NCBI RefSeq assembly: GCF_026410085.1
Contig: NZ_CP112866.1
Coordinates: 1,116,001-1,180,000 of the forward strand
Reading direction: 5' to 3'
Source of the DNA: Pseudomonas quebecensis
GTDB taxonomy: Bacteria > Pseudomonadota > Gammaproteobacteria > Pseudomonadales > Pseudomonadaceae
DNA: 64,000 nt
Shown here: one piece after another, positions 1 to 10,052 of the stretch
Layout: each line of letters begins with the position of its first letter
Numbering within the stretch: position 1 is the stretch's first letter
The notes under the pieces: model-generated
Databases searched by the model: none
The model's input: the letters and a program-made list of their open reading frames with translations, nothing else
What the model was told of the DNA's origin: nothing
Position numbers and translations under genes: made by a program

Positions 1-40
1 TGGCCGAAAGCGCTAGTCCGCGAGCGACTGCTATCGGCCA
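1..40. repeat. Inverted repeat with TGGCCGA/TCGGCCA arms
   Basis: Positions 1-7 (TGGCCGA) and 34-40 (TCGGCCA) are perfect complementary arms. The same short core, GCCGAAAGCG, recurs at about 2665-2674. It resembles degenerate intergenic repeats seen at gene ends in Pseudomonas. The rest of 41-375 holds no gene I can support; it should contain the promoter of the cassette starting at 376. Confidence 0.35.
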
Positions 41-375
41 TAAGCTGCCCTTTACAACTCGTCAAATCGACGTTGCTTTAGACCACTGAACAGGCTTTTG
101 TAACTTTTTCTCGCTTCACAATGGCGTACGCCGGCTTCATCCTAAGCCGGTATAGATGGACGCGAGTCCGCTGACGGAACTGGGGGCGACTGCGTGCGCA
201 AAACTCGACCGGGAAAAATACAGCCGGCGAAACTACCAACGCTGCGGATGCCAAAATGATGGCATTCGATAAGAACTTGACTAGAATAGAACCTTTACAA
301 AAAGAGGGAGCATTCATCACCTCATTACTGTGCCGCTCTCTGTGACCTTGACTCGACCGTAGGGAATTGAAGAAA

Positions 376-1575
376 ATGGATTTGTCCGAAATTAAAATTG
401 CTCATTACACTGGACAGCGTATTTGGATGGTTCGCGCTCAGGGCGGAAAGTACTTACGTCATTTCAGAACGGGTTCAGTTATTTCTATTGAGCATTTGGA
501 TAGATTCTATAATCACCTAGACCATGGAAGTCCAAAGATCCCCAGTAACGAGCAGATCAGGCGCTTAATACTTGAAAACGAAAGATACATTGACAAAACC
601 TCAAAAATACCGAAGTTTAACGCATCCGGCAGAAACTGCTTTCACCAGATAGATCACTTCCTCAACGATATTAAGAAAGGAGATTTAGTTGTCTCACTTG
701 ACACCACTCATATCATGATTGGTGTCTGCACATCATCAAAAGCCACACTTAGCAGTCGAGCTATTGCCTCTTCTGCCGATCCTGAGAAAATGACGACAGT
801 CAAATTGAAACACCGACTCAGGAAAGGTGTCGAATGGGGGCCTATAATAAAAAGAGAAACTGTAGGAGGATTGCTTAAGGGAACATTTCAATCGCGTCAT
901 ACCGTCACCAATCTAGACACACACTGGCGGGATATATTTGGACTGATCTATCCATTCTTCACCTATAACAATGAGCTCTATTTCTCCAATCGAATCGGCA
1001 CACGATCAGACATTAACGGGAAAATAATTAGCAAGTTGTTTGACAATCTCTCAAGCGTCCAGGTAATACTTGAAGAGCTTCTAGAAAGAAAGCTTAGTGA
1101 CGAATTTGTCAACAATCTTTTAAACGACGATATCGCTTGGGAAGAATTTGATTTAACCGCCAAGGCATATTTTGGATCGCCTGGAGGGATTTTTAACAAG
1201 GTTCCCCTTCCCCTATCTGTGAACCCTAAGTTCGTTTTACGAGCCTTTGCTCTGGCGTTTCTACTCACCTCGGGGCAGATAACCGCGGTAGCGGCGGCTG
1301 ACCAACTTAGTCCCGCTGACGACGCGTTCAATATTTACACTCCTGCAGAAATAGTTGACGAACGGCTCTTACAGAGGGATGGAGACGAAAACGTAGACCG
1401 GTTATTAGGAGAGCTCGCAAGAAAGAATGCTGATGCATTCGGAAAAATCAAAACTGGTCAGAAAACGGCTAAAGTCAAGGCTAAGCTTCGCCTTTCAGTA
1501 CCCAAGCATGACACGACGAACCTTGAAGACAAGGCGGGAATAAAAGTAACAAGAGTTGGCTCAAATGCGCAGTAA
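376..1575 (+). CDS. EVE-like domain protein, putative sensor of a two-gene defence-type cassette
   Basis: This is a 399-aa protein from ATG 376, preceded by AGGGA at 361; a TTG at 367 is possible but lies too close to that site. Residues about 15-200 follow the pattern of the EVE-like N-terminal domain of Mrr-type restriction proteins. They show a WMVRA strand near residue 17, then the segment KKGDLVV near 100-106, a following strand ending HIMIGV, a basic run ending in GVEW near 150-154, and a repeat-rich end ILYPFF-like near 190. That family binds modified bases or nucleic acid. The usual C-terminal nuclease is not seen. Instead there is a helical region with one hydrophobic stretch (about 286-308) and a lysine-rich tail. 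It overlaps the next gene by 11 bp and is AT-rich compared with the chromosome. The domain call is inference from the motif pattern. Confidence 0.6.
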   Translation: MDLSEIKIAHYTGQRIWMVRAQGGKYLRHFRTGSVISIEHLDRFYNHLDHGSPKIPSNEQIRRLILENERYIDKTSKIPKFNASGRNCFHQIDHFLNDIKKGDLVVSLDTTHIMIGVCTSSKATLSSRAIASSADPEKMTTVKLKHRLRKGVEWGPIIKRETVGGLLKGTFQSRHTVTNLDTHWRDIFGLIYPFFTYNNELYFSNRIGTRSDINGKIISKLFDNLSSVQVILEELLERKLSDEFVNNLLNDDIAWEEFDLTAKAYFGSPGGIFNKVPLPLSVNPKFVLRAFALAFLLTSGQITAVAAADQLSPADDAFNIYTPAEIVDERLLQRDGDENVDRLLGELARKNADAFGKIKTGQKTAKVKAKLRLSVPKHDTTNLEDKAGIKVTRVGSNAQ

Positions 1576-2140
1576 TATTGTTGACATAGCCGGCGGAACA
1601 TTCGTAGTAACAGGTATTTCCTACGCAACCGGAATTGCTTATTACAACTCCTTTTTCCGAAAAATAAACGGCAATCCAGATTTATTTTCCGTATCGCTTG
1701 AAAGAATATTGTTTGAGGGCGGGAGACAGCTTTTACATATTGCTTTTAAGCCGGCCTTAATTATAATCGCAATAACACTAGTATTAGCCATTATAAATTC
1801 CATACTCAAAAAACTTGGATCGGGCTTTTTAGAAGAGCTATTTGTAAATATAAAGAATTCAAGCATAGGAAAGTCCGTTCACACAATTAGCTGGGCGTAC
1901 TTATTTGTAATGATGTCCATCATCACCAGCTACTCTTTTACCTCGGGGAAAGAAGCTGGTGAAAAACATGCAGCTTCTACTACATGCACTCGAGCAAGCA
2001 TTGTTACAGAGAAAAAAACAATAGTCGGGTGTTTGATTTACAAGAGCGACTCTGAGGTCTGGGTGATTACTATCGACAAAGACCAAAAAGTTTTGCTAAA
2101 CATACCAAACGATAAATATTTATCAATATCAATTTATTGA
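1565..2140 (+). CDS. Small membrane protein, partner of the EVE-like protein
   Basis: This is a 191-aa protein if started at ATG 1565; TTG 1556 is in frame but less likely. Three hydrophobic segments can be seen: about residues 5-25 (rich in G, T and Y), 57-80 (a run of I, L, A and V) and 107-125 (AYLFVMM core). A soluble C-terminal tail of about 65 residues with two cysteines follows. The start lies inside the end of the upstream gene, so the two are translationally coupled and probably work together. I do not recognise a named family. Paired cytosolic sensor and membrane effector genes are a common layout of phage-defence modules, so a membrane-disrupting effector role is a reasonable inference, but no function is shown. 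Confidence 0.6.
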   Translation: MRSNIVDIAGGTFVVTGISYATGIAYYNSFFRKINGNPDLFSVSLERILFEGGRQLLHIAFKPALIIIAITLVLAIINSILKKLGSGFLEELFVNIKNSSIGKSVHTISWAYLFVMMSIITSYSFTSGKEAGEKHAASTTCTRASIVTEKKTIVGCLIYKSDSEVWVITIDKDQKVLLNIPNDKYLSISIY

Positions 2141-2251
2141 TACCATCACGATTAGCTTAGTGGCCAAGGAAAAATTGCGCGCAGCATCCTGAGCGGGCTC
2201 TTATACAGGGGTATGCAGTCTGCGTACTCCGTTTTTAGGAGTGATAGATGA

Positions 2252-2537
2252 AGTACAGATATCGACTATCAGCAACTGCACAAGGGAAACCTGCGACCTT
2301 CTGACGATGGAGATGTCGTCGGTGTCGAATTTGAAAGCGAGTCGGGATTCGCTCTCATACCCAACGTTGGGGACGTGGTGCACGTCCCAGCGATGGAGGG
2401 GCACGTTAGCGTGAAAGGTCTGGTGAAAACGCGCCTTTGTTAGCTACACCCGCGTCGGCGCAGAACTCTTCTGTAGCATCAACATCGTGGTTGAAGAACG
2501 CGATGACATTGACTGGGGCGCTCTGACCAAAGAGTAA
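2252..2537 (+). pseudogene. Frameshifted remnant of a small conserved protein
   Basis: One frame (2252-2443) reads a protein-like segment including DGDVVGVEFESESGFALIPN and continuing with an acidic/hydrophobic strand pattern, then hits TAG at 2441. The reading continues sensibly in another frame from about 2436, with RVGAELFCSINIVVEERDD, to TAA at 2535. One extra base near 2435 explains the break. No in-frame start codon is visible: the ATG at 2248 is in a different frame. It looks like a relic of a gene of about 95 codons. The opposite-strand reading frames here look random. Confidence 0.45.
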
Positions 2538-2653
2538 ATCTAGGTAGTCCCGCGAGCGGGTCGGCTTTGTTGCAAGAAAAGGATGTTTAGGGGCGCGCCC
2601 TTCGTCCGCGAAACCTGTGACTGAAACTCCCGGTTTCGTAGGGGCGACGGAGT

Positions 2654-2677
2654 GACCGCTTCTAGCCGAAAGCGGTC
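2654..2677. repeat. Inverted repeat GACCGCTT/AAGCGGTC
   Basis: Two perfect 8-bp arms (2654-2661 and 2670-2677) flank an 8-base loop. It shares the GCCGAAAGCG core with the repeat at position 1, so related repeats sit on both sides of the two-gene cassette and the gene relic. It may mark an old insertion or recombination boundary. The remainder of 2538-2780 shows no gene; a second hairpin with arms GCGGAAGC and GCTTCCGC lies at about 2752-2774 and could end transcription of the leftward operon. Confidence 0.4.
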
Positions 2678-2780
2678 CTAAGTCCACATCCGCCAAAGAT
2701 CAGAAGCCGAAAAATCTGGAGGCTTTTTCGTAATGGGAGGACCTATCGAAGCGGAAGCTTCTTAGGCTTCCGCCTCTTTA

Positions 2781-2990
2781 TCAGTCGCCCTTTCTTTTGA
2801 GTTGAAGGTCAATGAAATCAAGCTCTGCCTTGATTGCATCAATCGTGAGCGTCTCAACCTTGGTATTTTTGTTTGCTCTTGCGTTGAGCTTTTTCACGCC
2901 AGCTAGGACGACAATTATCCCGTTTAAATGGAGCTTTCGGGCCTTCAGGTAATCAGGCATCTGTGCGCTGTTCTGTGGTGGTTTGTTCAT
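2781..2990 (-). CDS. Small hypothetical protein of the island
   Basis: This is a 69-aa, lysine-rich protein (start MNKPPQNSAQ). Its C-terminal half looks like an amphipathic helix with charged residues spaced by leucine and isoleucine. It is the last gene of the leftward island operon, 63 bp after the coiled-coil gene, with no strong ribosome site. I do not recognise a family. It could be a chance ORF, but its position and its hairpin-like end at about 2752-2774 favour a real gene. Confidence 0.45.
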   Translation of the reverse strand: MNKPPQNSAQMPDYLKARKLHLNGIIVVLAGVKKLNARANKNTKVETLTIDAIKAELDFIDLQLKRKGD

Positions 2991-3053
2991 GATTGGACCG
3001 ATGGTAGGCCCGAAGCAACCAGCCCTCGCCGGTTGCTTCGGGGTAGGTTTGGA

Positions 3054-3896
3054 TTAGGCGGCCAGCAGGTCAAGCAGGCTGTGTTGGTGTGAGCGATCCA
3101 CGAGTTCGCGCCAGGTCCAGCTTCCAAAGTGCTCGCCCTGTTCAGGGATATCCAGCTTCATCAGTCCCACCGGGTCACGACTAATCAGGTTGCGTGCTGC
3201 CCAAAGCTTGCCGCCTGTCTCCAGCAGTGTTTTCGCGGCCTTATTCCATTGTTCTTCTAACACTGTGTTCGCCAGATGAGCCGCTTGGTTTTCGATCTTG
3301 GCGCGCTCTTTTTGTGCTTCTGTGATATGCAGGTCAATCGTCACGAGCTCCTGCTCCAGCGCGGTGATGAGCAGTTGTTGGCGGCGGTGATGCTCAGCAG
3401 CACCCGTGAGGTTCTTTGCTGCCTTTTGAGCTTCTGCGTTAGCAGCTTTCTCGCCTTCGACATCGCCCCAGGCGACGGCCTGTGCATAGGCAGTGGCTGC
3501 GTCAGTTTCAGCTTGTCGGGCCTTTGCCATGTCTTCCTGATCGCTCTGGCGGACCTGCTGCAACCGGATCTCGATGCTGCTGCGCTTTTCGTTGAGTTCC
3601 ATTTCGTCGGCTTTCCAGTTCGCCATATCGCTGAGATAGCCCGCAGCCAAGCTCTCACGGTTTGCCAATGTATCAAGGCGGTCTATCTTCTGGTTCAGTG
3701 CGCTGATCTCTAGATTTCGCGAGTCGATGCGTCTTTTGTGATCGTTGATTTCATCCTGCACGGCCCGTTGACGGCCCTGTTGGATAACCTCTGGGCTTTC
3801 TAGTGCCGCTTCAAAGGGTGCCAGGTCGAGCCGAATGCTCTCCATTTCGTGTGTCAGTGTGTCGCGGCGGTCTTTCAGTTCTTGGATAGTGGTCAT
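3054..3896 (-). CDS. Coiled-coil hypothetical protein of the island
   Basis: This is a 280-aa protein. Residues about 1-210 are almost wholly charged and helical (E, K, R, Q and A rich, heptad-like), so a long coiled coil is likely. The last 60 residues form a small aromatic-containing segment (FGSWTWRELVD). No enzyme motif, signal peptide or membrane segment can be seen. It lies 98 bp downstream of the primase-helicase gene, as part of the same leftward run. A structural or replication-accessory role is a guess from position only. Confidence 0.7.
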   Translation of the reverse strand: MTTIQELKDRRDTLTHEMESIRLDLAPFEAALESPEVIQQGRQRAVQDEINDHKRRIDSRNLEISALNQKIDRLDTLANRESLAAGYLSDMANWKADEMELNEKRSSIEIRLQQVRQSDQEDMAKARQAETDAATAYAQAVAWGDVEGEKAANAEAQKAAKNLTGAAEHHRRQQLLITALEQELVTIDLHITEAQKERAKIENQAAHLANTVLEEQWNKAAKTLLETGGKLWAARNLISRDPVGLMKLDIPEQGEHFGSWTWRELVDRSHQHSLLDLLAA

Positions 3897-3994
3897 CTGT
3901 ATTATCTCTGGGCACTACGTTTGATAGGCATGGTCGTTGAACGGCTGGCGAGGCCGGGAATGAGCCGGCGCTACCTCGATCTGTAGGCTTACAG

Positions 3995-6883
3995 CTAGGC
4001 GGCTTTTGCCTCGCGTTCGTCCTTTCCTGGAACTGTCTTCACCACATAGCAGCGCTGAGGTCCTAACCCAGGTAGACGAATCAAGCTGTACGCCTTGCCA
4101 TCGCTTCCCGGTTCGAGCATGCCCCGTTGCAGCAGCTCCTTATTTACTGCACTGATGTTCATGCCTCTGAAGATTTCGGCACGCCAGGCTTCAGGCAAAA
4201 CGTAGTAGGTGTTGGTGGTGTGCAGGGCGTCGCCCATGCCGTGTTCCAGGGTCTTGCGAAAGCCCAACCGATCAATCGTGCGCGGCCCGTGCTCATCGAT
4301 CTTTGCGGCGGTAGACTCCCAGCGAGTAAAGCGGCTTTCGCCAAAGCGCTCTATGACCTGACGCAATCGCGCCGAGATCGCATCGCCCTCGAAGTTCCCG
4401 GCGCCGCCGCGTTCGGTCAGCCATGCATGCAGACACACGCGGGCAGCGGTCGTAGCTGTGCCATCCGGCCAACCAGTCACATCGAAAGCGGTAGCCAGCT
4501 CTCCGGCCGCTGCCGCGAGGCCAAAGCGAAGTGCTGCACGCTGTGCCTGACCACTGGCCGAGGCGGGCAGGTTTTGGGTGATGAACTGCTCCACCGTGCG
4601 GCGCACGATCACCGACCACCTGAGCATTTCTCCTGGCGCGCACAGTGCGTGCAGGAAGGCGGTGAGGGGTGTGCCGTAGTATTTTGCTACACGGGCCTTG
4701 AGCGCATCGGAGAGGGCAGCAGCATCCTCAAAACCGTTCAGCACATCGAACATGCCGAGACCTTTGCTCGCATCCGCAGGCACGGCGAGCATGCGCACCT
4801 CCATACCGGCTTTCAGCTCCTTGTTGGCATCCGCCATGTGCTGCGCCAACGTTTTCTCGCCGGTCGAGAGAAACAGCAAGCGCCACTCCTGCACCTGTCG
4901 GCCCGCTTGTCCTCGATCATTCGCCCGGGCCTTACCAGTGCCGTTGCCGAGCATGTAGACCGTCTCGCCAATAATGCGCGGGTCGCACATGCCGATTTCA
5001 TCCAGCACCAGAAGACCGTCTGAGTGGGCGGCGGCGATAGACTCCAGGGCGTTATCCGTGGAACGCCACGAACGCACCAGACGCGGCCCGCCATAGACCG
5101 AGGCAGCGACCTGCAAGTGGGTGGTCTTGCCGCCGGAGCTGTCGCCGTAGAGGTGGAAACCGCCCGACTCATGACCAAGCAGGTTCAGCAGAGGTCCCGC
5201 AAAGGCCACAGAGACGACAAACGCCAATCGGTGATTACCAACGCACAGCGCGCCGATTTGCTGCTGCCATTGCTCCAGAGAACCCGCTTCGCTGATTGGT
5301 GGAAGCTGCGCACCGGCTTCATAAAAATGCAGGTGTTCGGCGTGTGAGCCGATTTGCTGTTCGGGCAATAGGAATGCGTTGTCGTGCCAACCCAAGCGTG
5401 TGACCAAACGTGCGCGCTGGGCGCTGTCGAAGCCGCCGAGGTAGCTTTGTAGGTCGTTGCGGGCATTGCGTCCTGATCGGCTCCCGGCAAGGCGCAGGCC
5501 CATGTCTACCAGCGGACCAAGCACGTCTTTGCCGAAGTCGCCGGTCATGGTTCGGGCCGGAATGTTCCAGCGCTTTCTGGCGCCGTCTGGGTCGTCAAAC
5601 TCGACCAGCAAGCCCCAGTTGTGACCCTTGTCGTCGCGAGTGCGAGCGATGATTTCGAGAGGTGAACACACGGGGCGCGCCTCGCCATCATCACCAGAGT
5701 AAAACACCCCTTCAGGTGTTAGGCGAAAGCCGCCCGGCAATGAGTCATTTTTCGATTTCGCAGGGCGTTTGGAAGGTGGCTTCCCCTTCGTTTGTTGAGG
5801 CTCAGTGGGCTCAACGACAGTGCCGAAAAACTCGCCGTTGCGTACCAACTCGGCGACGTGGCCTGCGGTCCAGCCTTTGGCTAACGCATCTGCTGCGTCG
5901 TCGCTATCCGCCCATTTTCCACCCTTAACGATCGTCGGTTTCCCGCCTTTGCTGCTTGGCTTGAGCTTGAACACGTCGAGCGAGATTCCTTGCACTGATG
6001 CAGCGCCCAGTTCTATCAGCTTGAGCTCAATGGCCTCCATGCAGGTCTTGCCGCTGGCATCGTTATCTGGCCACAGCACCACCGTGCGACCTTTGAGTGG
6101 CGTCAGGTCAGCCTTTTGCCAAGAGTTGGAGCCGTTCGGCCAGCAGGTGGCGACGTAGTCGGGCATCAGTTCAGCAGCGGCATCAGCGGCCTTTTCACCC
6201 TCACATAGCACCACAGGCGCATCTGCACGCTGTACCAGCTCATCCAGACGCAGCAAGGGCCTTGGCTGAGGCAAGCCTTGCCAACGCCATTGTGTGGTTT
6301 GTCCATCGGAGCGTTTGCACCAGGTCAACGGCGCAAAGACCTTTCGCGGTTTGCCATCTTCATCTGGGCCCAGGTCGAAGCGATACAACGCCATGACCGG
6401 CTGGCCCTGAGCATCGCGATAGATCCACACCTTGGACGGGGTGCCGTGTTGTCGGTGCTTGGCAGGGCACTTGTTCATGGCCTCGGCCGGGATCGGCTGA
6501 ATCGCGACCCACTCAGGCACTGCGCTTTTCGTCGGTGCGCTTTTGGTGGTTGCAGATCCTGCGGAAACACTGAGCAGATCCGCCAGCTTTTTGCAGGCCT
6601 CAACGTCGGTGCCGCCATCGATGTAACGCACCAGGTCGATCAGGTCCCCGCCCTTATCTCCAGTGGCAAAATCCGCCCAGGTGCCTTTGCTCAAGTTGAC
6701 CTTGAGTGAGCCTGCGCGTTTGTCCGTGCGCGTCGGGTTCGGTGCTGTGTATTCATTACCGCCGTCGACACGTTTGCCGTTTGGCAGCCAGTGAGTAAGG
6801 ACGCGGTCGATATTCTTCAAAGCGGCACTTTTTACGTCGGCAAAGCTGGGACGTTTTGAGTTGTTGCCAGTGCGCTGAGTCAT
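3995..6883 (-). CDS. Primase/DUF927 helicase-like replication protein of the island
   Basis: This is a 962-aa multidomain protein. The N-terminal part (about 1-110) resembles a DNA-primase-associated domain (GTWADFATGDKGGDLIDLV). A Toprim-like segment follows (about 225-285) with the motifs VVLCEGEKAADAA and VVLWPDNDASG. From about 390 a DUF927-type helicase region starts, with Walker A GDSSGGKTT near 585 and Walker B GLLVLDEIG near 625. Proteins of this build start replication of phage-like integrative elements and satellites. Its ATG overlaps the stop of the DUF3077-like gene by 4 bp, so both are translated from one message. It is the largest and best-supported island gene apart from the integrase. 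Confidence 0.9.
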   Translation of the reverse strand: MTQRTGNNSKRPSFADVKSAALKNIDRVLTHWLPNGKRVDGGNEYTAPNPTRTDKRAGSLKVNLSKGTWADFATGDKGGDLIDLVRYIDGGTDVEACKKLADLLSVSAGSATTKSAPTKSAVPEWVAIQPIPAEAMNKCPAKHRQHGTPSKVWIYRDAQGQPVMALYRFDLGPDEDGKPRKVFAPLTWCKRSDGQTTQWRWQGLPQPRPLLRLDELVQRADAPVVLCEGEKAADAAAELMPDYVATCWPNGSNSWQKADLTPLKGRTVVLWPDNDASGKTCMEAIELKLIELGAASVQGISLDVFKLKPSSKGGKPTIVKGGKWADSDDAADALAKGWTAGHVAELVRNGEFFGTVVEPTEPQQTKGKPPSKRPAKSKNDSLPGGFRLTPEGVFYSGDDGEARPVCSPLEIIARTRDDKGHNWGLLVEFDDPDGARKRWNIPARTMTGDFGKDVLGPLVDMGLRLAGSRSGRNARNDLQSYLGGFDSAQRARLVTRLGWHDNAFLLPEQQIGSHAEHLHFYEAGAQLPPISEAGSLEQWQQQIGALCVGNHRLAFVVSVAFAGPLLNLLGHESGGFHLYGDSSGGKTTHLQVAASVYGGPRLVRSWRSTDNALESIAAAHSDGLLVLDEIGMCDPRIIGETVYMLGNGTGKARANDRGQAGRQVQEWRLLFLSTGEKTLAQHMADANKELKAGMEVRMLAVPADASKGLGMFDVLNGFEDAAALSDALKARVAKYYGTPLTAFLHALCAPGEMLRWSVIVRRTVEQFITQNLPASASGQAQRAALRFGLAAAAGELATAFDVTGWPDGTATTAARVCLHAWLTERGGAGNFEGDAISARLRQVIERFGESRFTRWESTAAKIDEHGPRTIDRLGFRKTLEHGMGDALHTTNTYYVLPEAWRAEIFRGMNISAVNKELLQRGMLEPGSDGKAYSLIRLPGLGPQRCYVVKTVPGKDEREAKAA

Positions 6884-7152
6884 GGTGTGGTCCTCGACTC
6901 AAGCAACGCCTCGTTCACGTCGTCGATCAGTGCCTTTGCCATTTCGCCGAGGTAGAAGGCAGGCCAACTAAAACGCTCGCCCGCATCACTGATGGCTGCA
7001 TCGAGGATCAGTTGATTGGCGTGGTGCAGAATCTGGGAGACGGCTTCAAGTGCATCCTCCAGCGGGATACCGGCATTCACCCGAAACAGGTTTTGGCCGT
7101 TACCGTTGGCAGGGGAAAACTCGGAGCGTCCACGCGTGCTGGAGTGGGTCAC
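6880..7152 (-). CDS. DUF3077-like small protein
   Basis: This is a 90-aa protein with the pattern LFRVNAGIPLEDALEAVSQI followed by a second helix ending ALIDDVNEALL, typical of the DUF3077 family, which is common in Pseudomonas and its prophages and islands. Function is unknown. It is linked by ATGA-type overlaps to the genes on both sides (4 bp each), so it belongs to the tightly packed island operon. Confidence 0.75.
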   Translation of the reverse strand: MTHSSTRGRSEFSPANGNGQNLFRVNAGIPLEDALEAVSQILHHANQLILDAAISDAGERFSWPAFYLGEMAKALIDDVNEALLESRTTP

Positions 7153-7433
7153 AGCGCACCGCCTTTCTGGCCCATCGGCACAGAGGAGGCATCACCGTAC
7201 ATGGCGAGTGTTTTGATCAAACCCAAGGTGCCGCGCACGTCCCAAATAACAGACGACAGCACGCGGTTGGAAAGCAGGGGTTTATCGCCGTCTAAGTGAT
7301 CTTCCAACAGCATGAGAACTGAATCGGCACGGTCGAGCGCACAGGTGATGGCGTCGATAGGCAGACCGGCTTCGGCGTCCTGGCTGACGCAGAGCAAATC
7401 CTCGGGCAGTGCAAAGCCTGGGAGCATGCTCAT
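7149..7433 (-). CDS. Hypothetical island protein
   Basis: This is a 94-aa, mostly helical, acidic protein with several leucine-rich stretches (SVLMLLEDHLDG, WDVRGTLGLIKTL). I recognise no catalytic or membrane motif. It overlaps the preceding and following genes by 4 bp each. The sequence resembles small helical proteins co-carried with DUF3077 genes in Pseudomonas islands; its job is unknown. Confidence 0.7.
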   Translation of the reverse strand: MSMLPGFALPEDLLCVSQDAEAGLPIDAITCALDRADSVLMLLEDHLDGDKPLLSNRVLSSVIWDVRGTLGLIKTLAMYGDASSVPMGQKGGAL

Positions 7434-7822
7434 TGGGCACCCCCAAAGACTCTCAGATTTTCATGTTTGATTGTTTGGGCGTTTGAGTCCGCCCATTCGG
7501 CGTATTGATAATCTTGCTTGTTGAGGGAGTTGAGCGGCACTTGAATTTTATAGGCGCCACAGCAACGAAGGACTTCAAGGTCAACTACTCGTGTCGTGTT
7601 CGACATTCTGCGTTGATCAAGAATTACCCCCATATGGTCTATCAAATTTATGGTGATATGCTTAGAAGGTTGCATTGCGGTCTGCTCAGATTTGCTGTGT
7701 GACAGTCGAGTCAGTGGTACGAACACTGACTCGACACCCTTTTCTTCGAGGGACAGGTATAGAGCTAAGCTGCGCGATAGAATTCTTTGCAGATTTGCCC
7801 CCTCGAATAACGACGCGCTCAC
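7430..7822 (-). CDS. Hypothetical island protein
   Basis: This is a 130-aa protein if the GTG at 7822 is used. That GTG overlaps the stop of the HTH gene in a GTGA arrangement, which supports it. An ATG at 7675 would give an 81-aa form (from MQPSKHITIN). The C-terminal half contains two cysteines (RCCG) in a beta-like region. No family is recognised. Local base composition is more AT-rich than the helicase gene. Confidence 0.6.
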   Translation of the reverse strand: MSASLFEGANLQRILSRSLALYLSLEEKGVESVFVPLTRLSHSKSEQTAMQPSKHITINLIDHMGVILDQRRMSNTTRVVDLEVLRCCGAYKIQVPLNSLNKQDYQYAEWADSNAQTIKHENLRVFGGAQ

Positions 7823-8139: not shown

Positions 8140-8679
8140 ATGGCTAATCGTTCAAAGAAGGCGGTTTTATCAGCTAGGGTCGACCCCTACCTCAAAGCCG
8201 CGCTGGAGTTGCTGGCGGTCTCGCGAAACGAGAAAATCGTAAAGATCCTAGAGTCATGCCTTGAGAATGGGATGAATGACAGAATCATTGCGAATCCGTT
8301 TAAAACTCCGCAAAAAAAATTGGAGAAAGTCAGTTTCATGGTCGCATTCGCGGCGATCTGGTCGGAGAATGAAACGCTTTACAAATTACGCGCTGGAACT
8401 CTAGGGCCTGATTTTGCTGGCGAGGAGTTGTCGATGGTCGCTATGTTTATCAACGGCGATAAGTATTTCGACGGGGAATTCGATGTTTTTGGGGATCTAA
8501 ACGGTTCGAAAGATACGTTTGGCTTTGAACCGCGAATGCAACCTCGCGTGAACCTTGCGTTGGTGGAGAGGGAATGGCCAATTGTTGAGGAATACGTGAG
8601 GTTCCTCTCGAACAACAAGCCACTTCAGCCGGGCTATGCCGATTACAAAAGTATGCGAGCTCACTCTCTGGCTAAATGA
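8140..8679 (+). CDS. RHH-like N-terminal domain protein of the island
   Basis: This is a 179-aa protein from ATG 8140, with a strong GGAGGG at 8131-8136. Residues about 5-45 (KKAVLSARVDPYLKAALELL then a second helix) fit a ribbon-helix-helix fold like CopG/Arc. The remaining 130 residues are acidic and aromatic and unlike known repressors. It is divergent from the HTH gene and convergent with the integrase, overlapping its end by 8 bp. A regulator of the divergent promoter is plausible, but the long C-terminal part is unexplained. Confidence 0.7.
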   Translation: MANRSKKAVLSARVDPYLKAALELLAVSRNEKIVKILESCLENGMNDRIIANPFKTPQKKLEKVSFMVAFAAIWSENETLYKLRAGTLGPDFAGEELSMVAMFINGDKYFDGEFDVFGDLNGSKDTFGFEPRMQPRVNLALVEREWPIVEEYVRFLSNNKPLQPGYADYKSMRAHSLAK

Positions 8680-9913
8680 GTTCAACCGCAGCGGCTTTTG
8701 TTTCAGGCGCCAGATGGGCATATCGTAGTGTCATCTTAATATCGGCGTGCCCTAGCAGATCCCGTACCGTGTTGAGCGGTACGCCGGCCATTACGAGGCG
8801 TGAAGCGAAGTCGTGACGCATATCGTGCCAGCGGAACCCGTCGATCTGCGCCCGCTCAAGTAACTTGAGCCAGGCGCTTTTCACGTCTTCAAAGCGACCG
8901 CCGTCCTGGCCAGGGAACACATACGGCGATTTTTTCACCTGCTTCTTCCAGGCTTCAAGTACGCCCAACGCCTCCTTGTTCATCGGGATGTGGCGCGTAT
9001 CGCTGGTCTTGGTGGTGGCCCCAGCGACTGTGATTGTCTTGGTGCCGAAGTTCACTGCTGACCATTTCAGGTCGAACAGCTCTCCGCGCCTCATGCCGGT
9101 ATTCAACGATACCAACACCATTGGCTTCAGGTGATCGGTGAAAGGCAGTTCCAGCAGGCTTGGCATCGGCTCTCTGTGGCGGTCCGTCCGCCAGGTGTTT
9201 GCACTCTCGCGCTCGGCCCTCATTTCATCCTGTCGAGCGTCCAGGGCGTCGCGTAGACGCTTGGTCTCGTCAGCAGCCAGGTAGCGAATCACCCCCTTTG
9301 AATCGACTTTGAGCTGTTTCAGCTTGGTCAGCGGGTGTGTATCGATGTACTCCCACTCAACGGCACGACTGAAAACACCACTAATCGAGCCCATTTTTCG
9401 ATTCACCGTCGAGGCCTTGTTGCCGGCCTGCATCCAACCGGTGCGGATCTGCTCCAGGTCTCGTCCGGTGATCGCGTCCAGGCGCTGGGACATGATTGGG
9501 TCAAAGTTATTACTGAGGGTGTGCTGCGTCTTCTCGTGGCCTTTGTGATGAGCCTTGAACCACGGCATATAGGTGTCTTCAATGAAGTCGCGTAAGGAGG
9601 GCAGGGTGGCGCCCCTTCGGCCTTGACTGACCGCCAGAGGCTCTCCATGTGCTCGGGCTTCTGCGAGGTACTGAGTGGCCTCAGTGCGCGCTTGATCAAG
9701 CGTGAGTATGCCGACACGGCCTAAAGTCTTCTTCCGGCCACGGGCCCAGGAGACGACGTAAGATTTTGCACCTGCGGCAGTAACACGCACGAATAGACCG
9801 CCGACGGTGGTATCGTGAACTTCGTATTCGTTGCCAGTGACGTGCAGTGATCCGAGCAGTTTGGCTGTTAGCTTCTCTTTCAATTTGTTCCCATGGGTGC
9901 ATGGTGGGTGCAA
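8672..9913 (-). CDS. int: Tyrosine site-specific integrase
   Basis: This is a 413-aa phage-type integrase. The N-terminal part (1-90) is the arm-binding DUF4102-like domain (GGLFVRVTAAGAKSYV); a core-binding helical domain follows at about 110-200; the catalytic domain carries the Arg of TGMRRGE, the Lys of TTKTSD, the HxxR box of WHDMRHDFASR, and LGHADIKMTLRY with the nucleophile near Tyr398. It catalyses strand exchange between the element and the tRNA-Arg site. It lies about 90 bp inside the truncated tRNA junction, as expected for an attachment-site-adjacent integrase. It appears intact, so the island may still excise. Confidence 0.95.
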   Translation of the reverse strand: MHPPCTHGNKLKEKLTAKLLGSLHVTGNEYEVHDTTVGGLFVRVTAAGAKSYVVSWARGRKKTLGRVGILTLDQARTEATQYLAEARAHGEPLAVSQGRRGATLPSLRDFIEDTYMPWFKAHHKGHEKTQHTLSNNFDPIMSQRLDAITGRDLEQIRTGWMQAGNKASTVNRKMGSISGVFSRAVEWEYIDTHPLTKLKQLKVDSKGVIRYLAADETKRLRDALDARQDEMRAERESANTWRTDRHREPMPSLLELPFTDHLKPMVLVSLNTGMRRGELFDLKWSAVNFGTKTITVAGATTKTSDTRHIPMNKEALGVLEAWKKQVKKSPYVFPGQDGGRFEDVKSAWLKLLERAQIDGFRWHDMRHDFASRLVMAGVPLNTVRDLLGHADIKMTLRYAHLAPETKAAAVELI

Positions 9914-10004: not shown

Positions 10005-10052
10005 ACCCTCCTAAGGGGAAGGTTGGCCGTTCGAACCGGCCCTGGGACACCA
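10005..10052 (+). other. Attachment-site half: 3' fragment of tRNA-Arg(CCT)
   Basis: The segment shows the anticodon loop CTCCTAA, the T arm GGCCG-TTCGAAC-CGGCC, the 3' acceptor strand CTGGGAC and the end ACCA at 10049-10052. The matching 5' acceptor strand GTCCCAG and a D arm are absent upstream, and the anticodon stem is already mismatched on its 5' side. This is therefore the duplicated 3' end left by integration; the functional tRNA should sit at the other end of the island. The remaining gap from 9914 to 10339 shows no gene. Confidence 0.85.

Follow-up and report, generated by a model that had tools for sequence, protein, structure and literature searches.

Two overlapping genes lie near the start of the window, the 64,000-nucleotide stretch of Pseudomonas quebecensis DNA that was analysed as a whole. 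ORF A (376..1575, forward strand; ATG at 376, stop at 1575) encodes a putative EVE/YTH-like sensor protein of 399 aa with a hydrophobic segment, and ORF B (1565..2140, forward strand; ATG at 1565, stop at 2140) encodes a predicted three-helix membrane protein of 191 aa with a small C-terminal beta-barrel. The two frames share 11 bp (1565..1575), as the earlier note on this DNA had stated, and an alternative TTG start at 367 would lengthen A by 3 aa. When start codons were picked by hand in the nine other genome pairs listed, the junction was an overlap of 11 or 14 bp in six and a gap of 3-10 bp in three. The GC content is 0.453 and 0.424 in kilobases 1 and 2 of the window and about 0.6 over most of the remainder, which bears out the AT-rich island of the earlier note. 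A protein database held 23 homologues of A and 21 of B. Compared with genome G376, which carries the nearest other copy, A has a dN/dS of 0.087 and B one of 0.124. In another two genome pairs the values were 0.056 and 0.076 for A and 0.116 and 0.115 for B, the comparison with G038 gave 0.084 for B at a dS near saturation, and all remaining comparisons were saturated. Because of these homologues and the low dN/dS, we regard A and B as real genes rather than chance ORFs. Downstream of B, positions 2201-2540 are the counterpart of a 95-aa ORF that lies 3' of B in G376 (L041 2495-2782), and by eye they apparently form no single frame.

The mobile element and its cargo

The A-B pair is cargo of a tRNA-Arg integrative element. 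The cargo unit (28..2669) is 94.8% identical to a unit lying in another setting in G376, and the element backbone (2665..7444, reverse strand), which includes a 962-aa DUF927 protein at 3995-6883, is 89% identical to genome G101; the cargo/backbone junction is therefore placed near 2665. At that junction G101, which shares the backbone, has different cargo. A tyrosine integrase (8672..9913, reverse strand; PF00589, 1e-30) follows, and beyond it lies the right attachment repeat (10006..10052, forward strand), which repeats 47 bp from the 3' part of tRNA-Arg(CCT). ARAGORN placed the complete tRNA outside the window (G000:C1:1107231-1107307), and in the same-species genome G040, which has neither A nor B, the two flanks of the empty site are 89 bp apart, leaving room for the tRNA plus 12 bp. 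From the tRNA position, the repeat and the empty site, the element is about 18,745 bp long (18.7 kb).

On its cargo side G101 has NDT_II-A and RT_II-A, followed by an A-like gene and its own, different two-helix membrane ORF (L039 7098-11096), and next an HEC-07-like gene; NDT_II-A and RT_II-A are the proteins of a type II-A retron, which is known here from these protein genes. Elsewhere, A-B pairs were found close to tRNA-Ser or tRNA-Thr, or to integrase-like ORFs as judged by eye. The G196 pair has a type II restriction enzyme with Vsr a few kb away, and the G351 pair a PDC-S41/AbiO/Nhi-like protein nearby. A protein of this similarity lies near an A-B pair at L035 11128-12999, and a like ORF was seen by eye at L040 6248-8119. 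PADLOC gave some match for six of ten neighbour proteins and none for the other four, the JetC and ZorF matches being too weak for use. To the left of the window, the element carries metabolic-looking cargo (L033 6050-11932), with AraC-type and LysR-type regulators, a transporter and an amidohydrolase recognised by eye and SMP-30/gluconolactonase by Pfam. At its tRNA-Arg end is a 432-aa protein (L033 3454-4752) that by eye has a coiled-coil look and hydrophobic stretches, with a weak MukB/JetC-like PADLOC match.

Protein A: sensor domain, hydrophobic segment and tail

The N-terminal half of A has the EVE/YTH (PUA-like) fold according to its AlphaFold model and structure alignment, the domain spanning residues about 5-194 (388..957, forward strand). 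It also matches PADLOC PDC-S02 over residues 15-188 (E 3e-10), so the EVE-like domain that had been proposed from the motifs WMVRA, KKGDLVV and GVEW, all three present in the translation, is upheld. The phrog_10226 profile matches residues 16-233 at 8e-21, covering only profile positions 22-230 of 369. Foldseek gave no match for A or B at E <= 0.001. Aligning 14 diverse relatives showed no variation at Trp17 and Trp154, nor at the S and G of an S-P-G motif at residues 268-270 (1177..1185, forward strand). No Pfam family was found in A at E <= 10 and the Mrr catalytic domain is absent, in agreement with the claim that the usual nuclease is gone. The region that takes its place had been called helical with a hydrophobic stretch; the stretch is there, but the region is not simply helical, since the model places strands and helices at 194-277 and the hydrophobic segment (about 286-300) in the helix after them, ahead of a linker and a mostly helical tail.

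The hydrophobic core (residues 286-300; 1231..1275, forward strand) is signal-peptide-like, and it is followed by a C-terminal tail of about 100 aa (residues 301-399; 1276..1572, forward strand), in which Leu371 is invariant in the 14-sequence alignment. The core has a mean length of 14.2 residues in 32 Pseudomonas A proteins; of these, 25 are more positive on the N-side and two on the C-side, and three have a lipobox (G196, G110 and G217, the last two near-identical). Nine Bacteroidota-like relatives are similar in core length (mean 14.3 residues), with a more positive N-side in 9/9 and a lipobox in 6/9. In the Bacillota-like relatives (25 of 27 scored), the core averages 18.3 residues, the C-side is more positive in 24 and a lipobox is found in one. 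A strict signal-peptidase-I-like site within 17 residues past the core occurs in 18 of 24 Pseudomonas proteins under 80% identity, which are related and hence not independent cases, against 6.2 expected from shuffled tails. In the lineages of Gram-negative type (Pseudomonas and Bacteroidota-like), the segment thus resembles a signal peptide placed internally. Three observations count against this: the opposite charge pattern in the Bacillota-like relatives, the alignment of Leu371 in all 14 sequences, as though the tail kept to one compartment, and the packing of the tail on the sensor domain in the AlphaFold model. The last of these follows from the structural alignments, most of which include part of the tail and 31/50 of which have their last aligned residue at 379-393. 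With the tail placed on the EVE domain, the hydrophobic segment might instead be buried as a helix within a soluble protein.

Protein B

The three membrane helices previously read from the sequence of B were recovered in its AlphaFold model (22 sequences, mean pLDDT 81, pTM 0.71) as long helices at residues 5-33 (1577..1663), 45-83 (1697..1813) and 110-138 (1892..1978), all on the forward strand, followed by a small five-strand barrel of the Sm/SH3-like type at residues 141-191 (1985..2137, forward strand). Tyr20, Gly23, Gly52, Gly53, Gly132, Cys141, Cys156 and Trp166 are invariant across 12 diverse B proteins, the two cysteines belonging to the barrel. Of the 31 B proteins at hand, the 21 with 191 aa have a mean net charge of +2.0 in the loop between helices 2 and 3, +0.6 in the first loop and -0.2 after helix 3; the helix 2-3 loop is more positive than the first loop in 15/21 and than the stretch after helix 3 in 14/21. 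These loop charges and the two invariant cysteines suggest an N-in topology with a periplasmic, disulfide-bonded barrel.

Pairing in Pseudomonas and co-divergence

Profile searches of 398 Pseudomonas genomes gave 17 matches for A and nine for B. Ten of the A matches are strong (E 5e-58 or better), and B lies directly after A in all ten. Nine of these genomes are the nine with a B profile match; in the tenth, G081, a diverged B that retains the invariant residues was found by inspection. Six of the seven weaker A matches are EVE-Mrr proteins, and the seventh is the A-like protein of G101, after which comes not B but an unlike ORF of about 240 aa for which two membrane helices are predicted. The distance matrices of A and B correlate with a Mantel r of 0.93, a value reached by 0/2000 permutations, over 18 pairs (the window, nine genomes, L049 and seven database pairs, in which the A and B matches were taken to belong together because their longest contigs had equal lengths). 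Both proteins are under purifying selection and co-diverge. Outside Pseudomonas, B matched in 3/369 genomes at E <= 0.001, one of them our own and two marginal (6e-4 and 1e-3, with a stop inside). B may therefore be a local invention, since no convincing B was found beyond Pseudomonas.

Distant relatives of A and their membrane partners

A profile built from 14 diverse sequences found at least 59 proteins among 7996 candidates scored. They comprise the Pseudomonas A proteins, a Bacillota-like group (with Streptococcus among the names), a Bacteroidota-like group (with Flavobacteriaceae and Cytophagales) and three proteins with a precomputed Mrr domain, members lacking names being assigned to the two "-like" groups by sequence likeness. 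The relatives in Streptococcus phage SF39 and Lactobacillus phage G2-Guo likewise have a C-terminal hydrophobic segment plus tail. On viral contigs, 39 relatives carrying the motif formed 19 clusters at 70% identity. An ORF with at least two membrane helices, predicted from hydropathy only, lies at the 3' end in 16/19 of these clusters, compared with 7/110 control clusters of other ORFs of at least 150 aa from the same loci (Fisher 1.9e-12); an earlier count with looser de-duplication gave 18/21 and 18/179.

Of the 16 partners, thirteen run convergent to the A-like gene, measure 57-88 aa and have two predicted membrane helices (L053-L091 loci), and the SF39 relative also has a convergent two-helix ORF at its 3' end. 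PHROG gave no match for the four such ORFs checked; it is possible that these small proteins are immunity or effector proteins. The other three partners share the strand of the A-like gene: L067 (69 aa), L068 (165 aa, 11-bp overlap) and L066 (216 aa), the last beginning at the final base of the A-like stop codon. By eye, the EVE-like ORFs of L066 and L068 have a lipobox-type segment. As a side observation, at the Bacteroidota-like loci L068 (3707-4204) and L069 (4930-5580), an overlapping or abutting ORF follows an EVE-like ORF with a lipobox-type segment, and both partner ORFs have two hydrophobic stretches around a charged, coiled-coil-like middle. Clusters L056, L058 and L060 (3/19) and phage G2-Guo have no such partner by the two-helix rule. 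With 16/19 clusters accompanied by a partner that varies in strand and size, the membrane partnership appears to recur among distant relatives, but with differing partners. The expectation that homologues occur paired rather than singly holds for all ten strong Pseudomonas A proteins and fails for these three clusters and G2-Guo.

Discussion

We read A-B as a RexAB-like abortive-infection defence module, composed of a sensor and a membrane effector and not homologous to lambda RexA and RexB, and we put the probability of this reading at about 0.5. A would be the infection sensor: in the cytosol its EVE/YTH-like domain would read a base, probably a modified one, of phage nucleic acid, and the hydrophobic segment would keep A at the inner membrane next to B. 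B would oligomerise in the membrane as a three-helix protein and, on being triggered by A, would open or damage the membrane and so stop the infected cell, as in RexA-RexB. In support we count the EVE/YTH fold and PDC-S02 kinship of A, the 10/10 pairing, the co-divergence and purifying selection of both genes, the recurrent membrane partners, the place of the SF39 relative between a regulator and an integrase, the position as tRNA-Arg cargo with an empty site, the retron and HEC-07-like cargo of G101 and the defence genes near the G196 and G351 pairs. Against it stand the want of kinship with RexA or RexB, the silence of Foldseek, the packing of the tail, the absence from A of the nuclease of the full-length PDC-S02 protein, the want of a convincing B beyond Pseudomonas in 369 genomes, the partnerless 3/19 clusters and G2-Guo, and the four of ten neighbour proteins that PADLOC left without a match.

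Other readings have to be weighed. Genes for superinfection exclusion are common in the repressor-integrase region of prophages. The SF39 relative lies between a Cro/CI-type regulator and an integrase by annotation, and other prophage relatives were seen by eye in the same region. A nucleic-acid reader linked to the membrane would also suit a function in which tethered A binds entering phage DNA and, with B as a scaffold, prevents injection or early replication while the cell stays alive. We think this rather unlikely, because the additional beta-barrel of B with its invariant cysteines suggests a role beyond that of an anchor. An addiction pair of the element, in which one membrane-active partner is toxic, the other restrains it and phage defence is secondary, would agree with the overlapping frames and with the small convergent two-helix ORFs at many distant relatives, which recall toxin/antidote layouts; in the Butters gp30/gp31 system the membrane component reportedly keeps its cytosolic partner in check (PMC12894663). 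However, A retains the EVE/YTH fold and conserved residues for which an antidote has no obvious need, and we hold a toxin-antitoxin function to be unlikely.

The state of the hydrophobic segment separates two further accounts. High pLDDT around residues 290-309, together with the tail docked on the EVE domain, would fit a soluble, nuclease-free reader or regulator with a buried helix, the membrane work of B being separate within the same operon; but the segments are uniformly hydrophobic by eye, their ends are signal-like and membrane partners recur among the relatives, and we consider a soluble A quite improbable. Slightly less so, though still a speculative proposal, is that A contains an internal, conditionally used export signal, on a principle common to the Pseudomonas and Bacteroidota-like systems. 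At rest, the tail would be docked on the sensor, as in the AlphaFold model; binding of phage nucleic acid would free the hydrophobic segment to become an inner-membrane signal anchor, which signal peptidase would cut or, in some lineages, lipidation at the lipobox would follow; and the short tail peptide would then act in the periplasm on the cysteine-paired barrel of B. If true, the alarm of a cytosolic nucleic-acid reader would be passed across the membrane.

Because the distant relatives on phage-like DNA mostly retain a membrane partner, a putative and little-studied kind of anti-phage alarm is suggested. The data point to nuclease-free EVE/YTH-type readers that gained a hydrophobic segment and lineage-specific membrane partners, apparently in three bacterial groups, and that are carried by integrative elements and phage-like contigs. 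Restriction enzymes and m6A biology have made readers of modified nucleic acids familiar. The abortive-infection reading would connect them to membrane-based abortive infection, a link not found in our literature search, which returned no title that joins a membrane-linked EVE/YTH protein to a membrane partner.

Comparison with known systems

RexA-RexB of lambda and RexABpp of P. putida prophage P1 resemble A-B in that adjacent genes on a mobile element encode a nucleic-acid-binding and a membrane protein (PMC12894663), and an abortive-infection logic may be common to them. For RexABpp it is described that both genes are needed and that its RexA binds DNA, and that overproduced RexA makes RexB halt growth, a small subpopulation of cells showing leaky membranes (PMC12894663). 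The same source gives RexBpp four predicted membrane segments; B has three. The EVE/YTH fold of A is a further difference from both systems, and with the lambda sequences, the ones compared, hhalign found no homology (probability 0.2 percent for A and RexA, 0.1 percent for B and RexB).

The EVE-like-Mrr restriction enzymes of PDC-S02, a candidate label in PADLOC, are presumably COG4127-type. They have the N-terminal domain in common with A, and the full-length P0080 has Mrr_cat, which A lacks. PDC-S02 was counted in a phage-resistance survey (PMC10855318). The EVE-HNH endonuclease VcaM4I (PDB 6yex) is described with an HNH nuclease (PMC7897488), whereas A is without any nuclease match. The phage proteins of phrog_10226, for which no function is given, match two Bacillota-like relatives nearly over their full length (5e-127 and 1e-75); the Bacillota-like members differ from A in that their hydrophobic stretch is longer and its C-side positive, and where A has B they often have a small two-helix ORF in convergent orientation.

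As multi-gene cargo on a small integrative element, A-B is comparable to gop-beta-cII, the defence cargo of satellite P4, and E. coli P4-like satellites are described as carrying defence hotspots (PMC9122126). Gop has 133 aa and beta 355 aa, compared with 399 aa for A and 191 aa for B; P4 (NC_001609), part of the collection searched by tblastn, was absent from the matches of A (3 records) and of B (none), and the element of the window has a DUF927 protein. Modified cytosine is given as the ligand of EVE domains and m6A as that of YTH domains (PMC7641849), and fusions of EVE domains to nucleases and GTPases have been described (PMC7641849, PMC11090510); the main text of PMC7641849 uses "membrane" 5 times and "transmembrane" never. 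The sensor superfamily and the sensor-effector logic are thus known, and what appears to be new in A-B is their combination.
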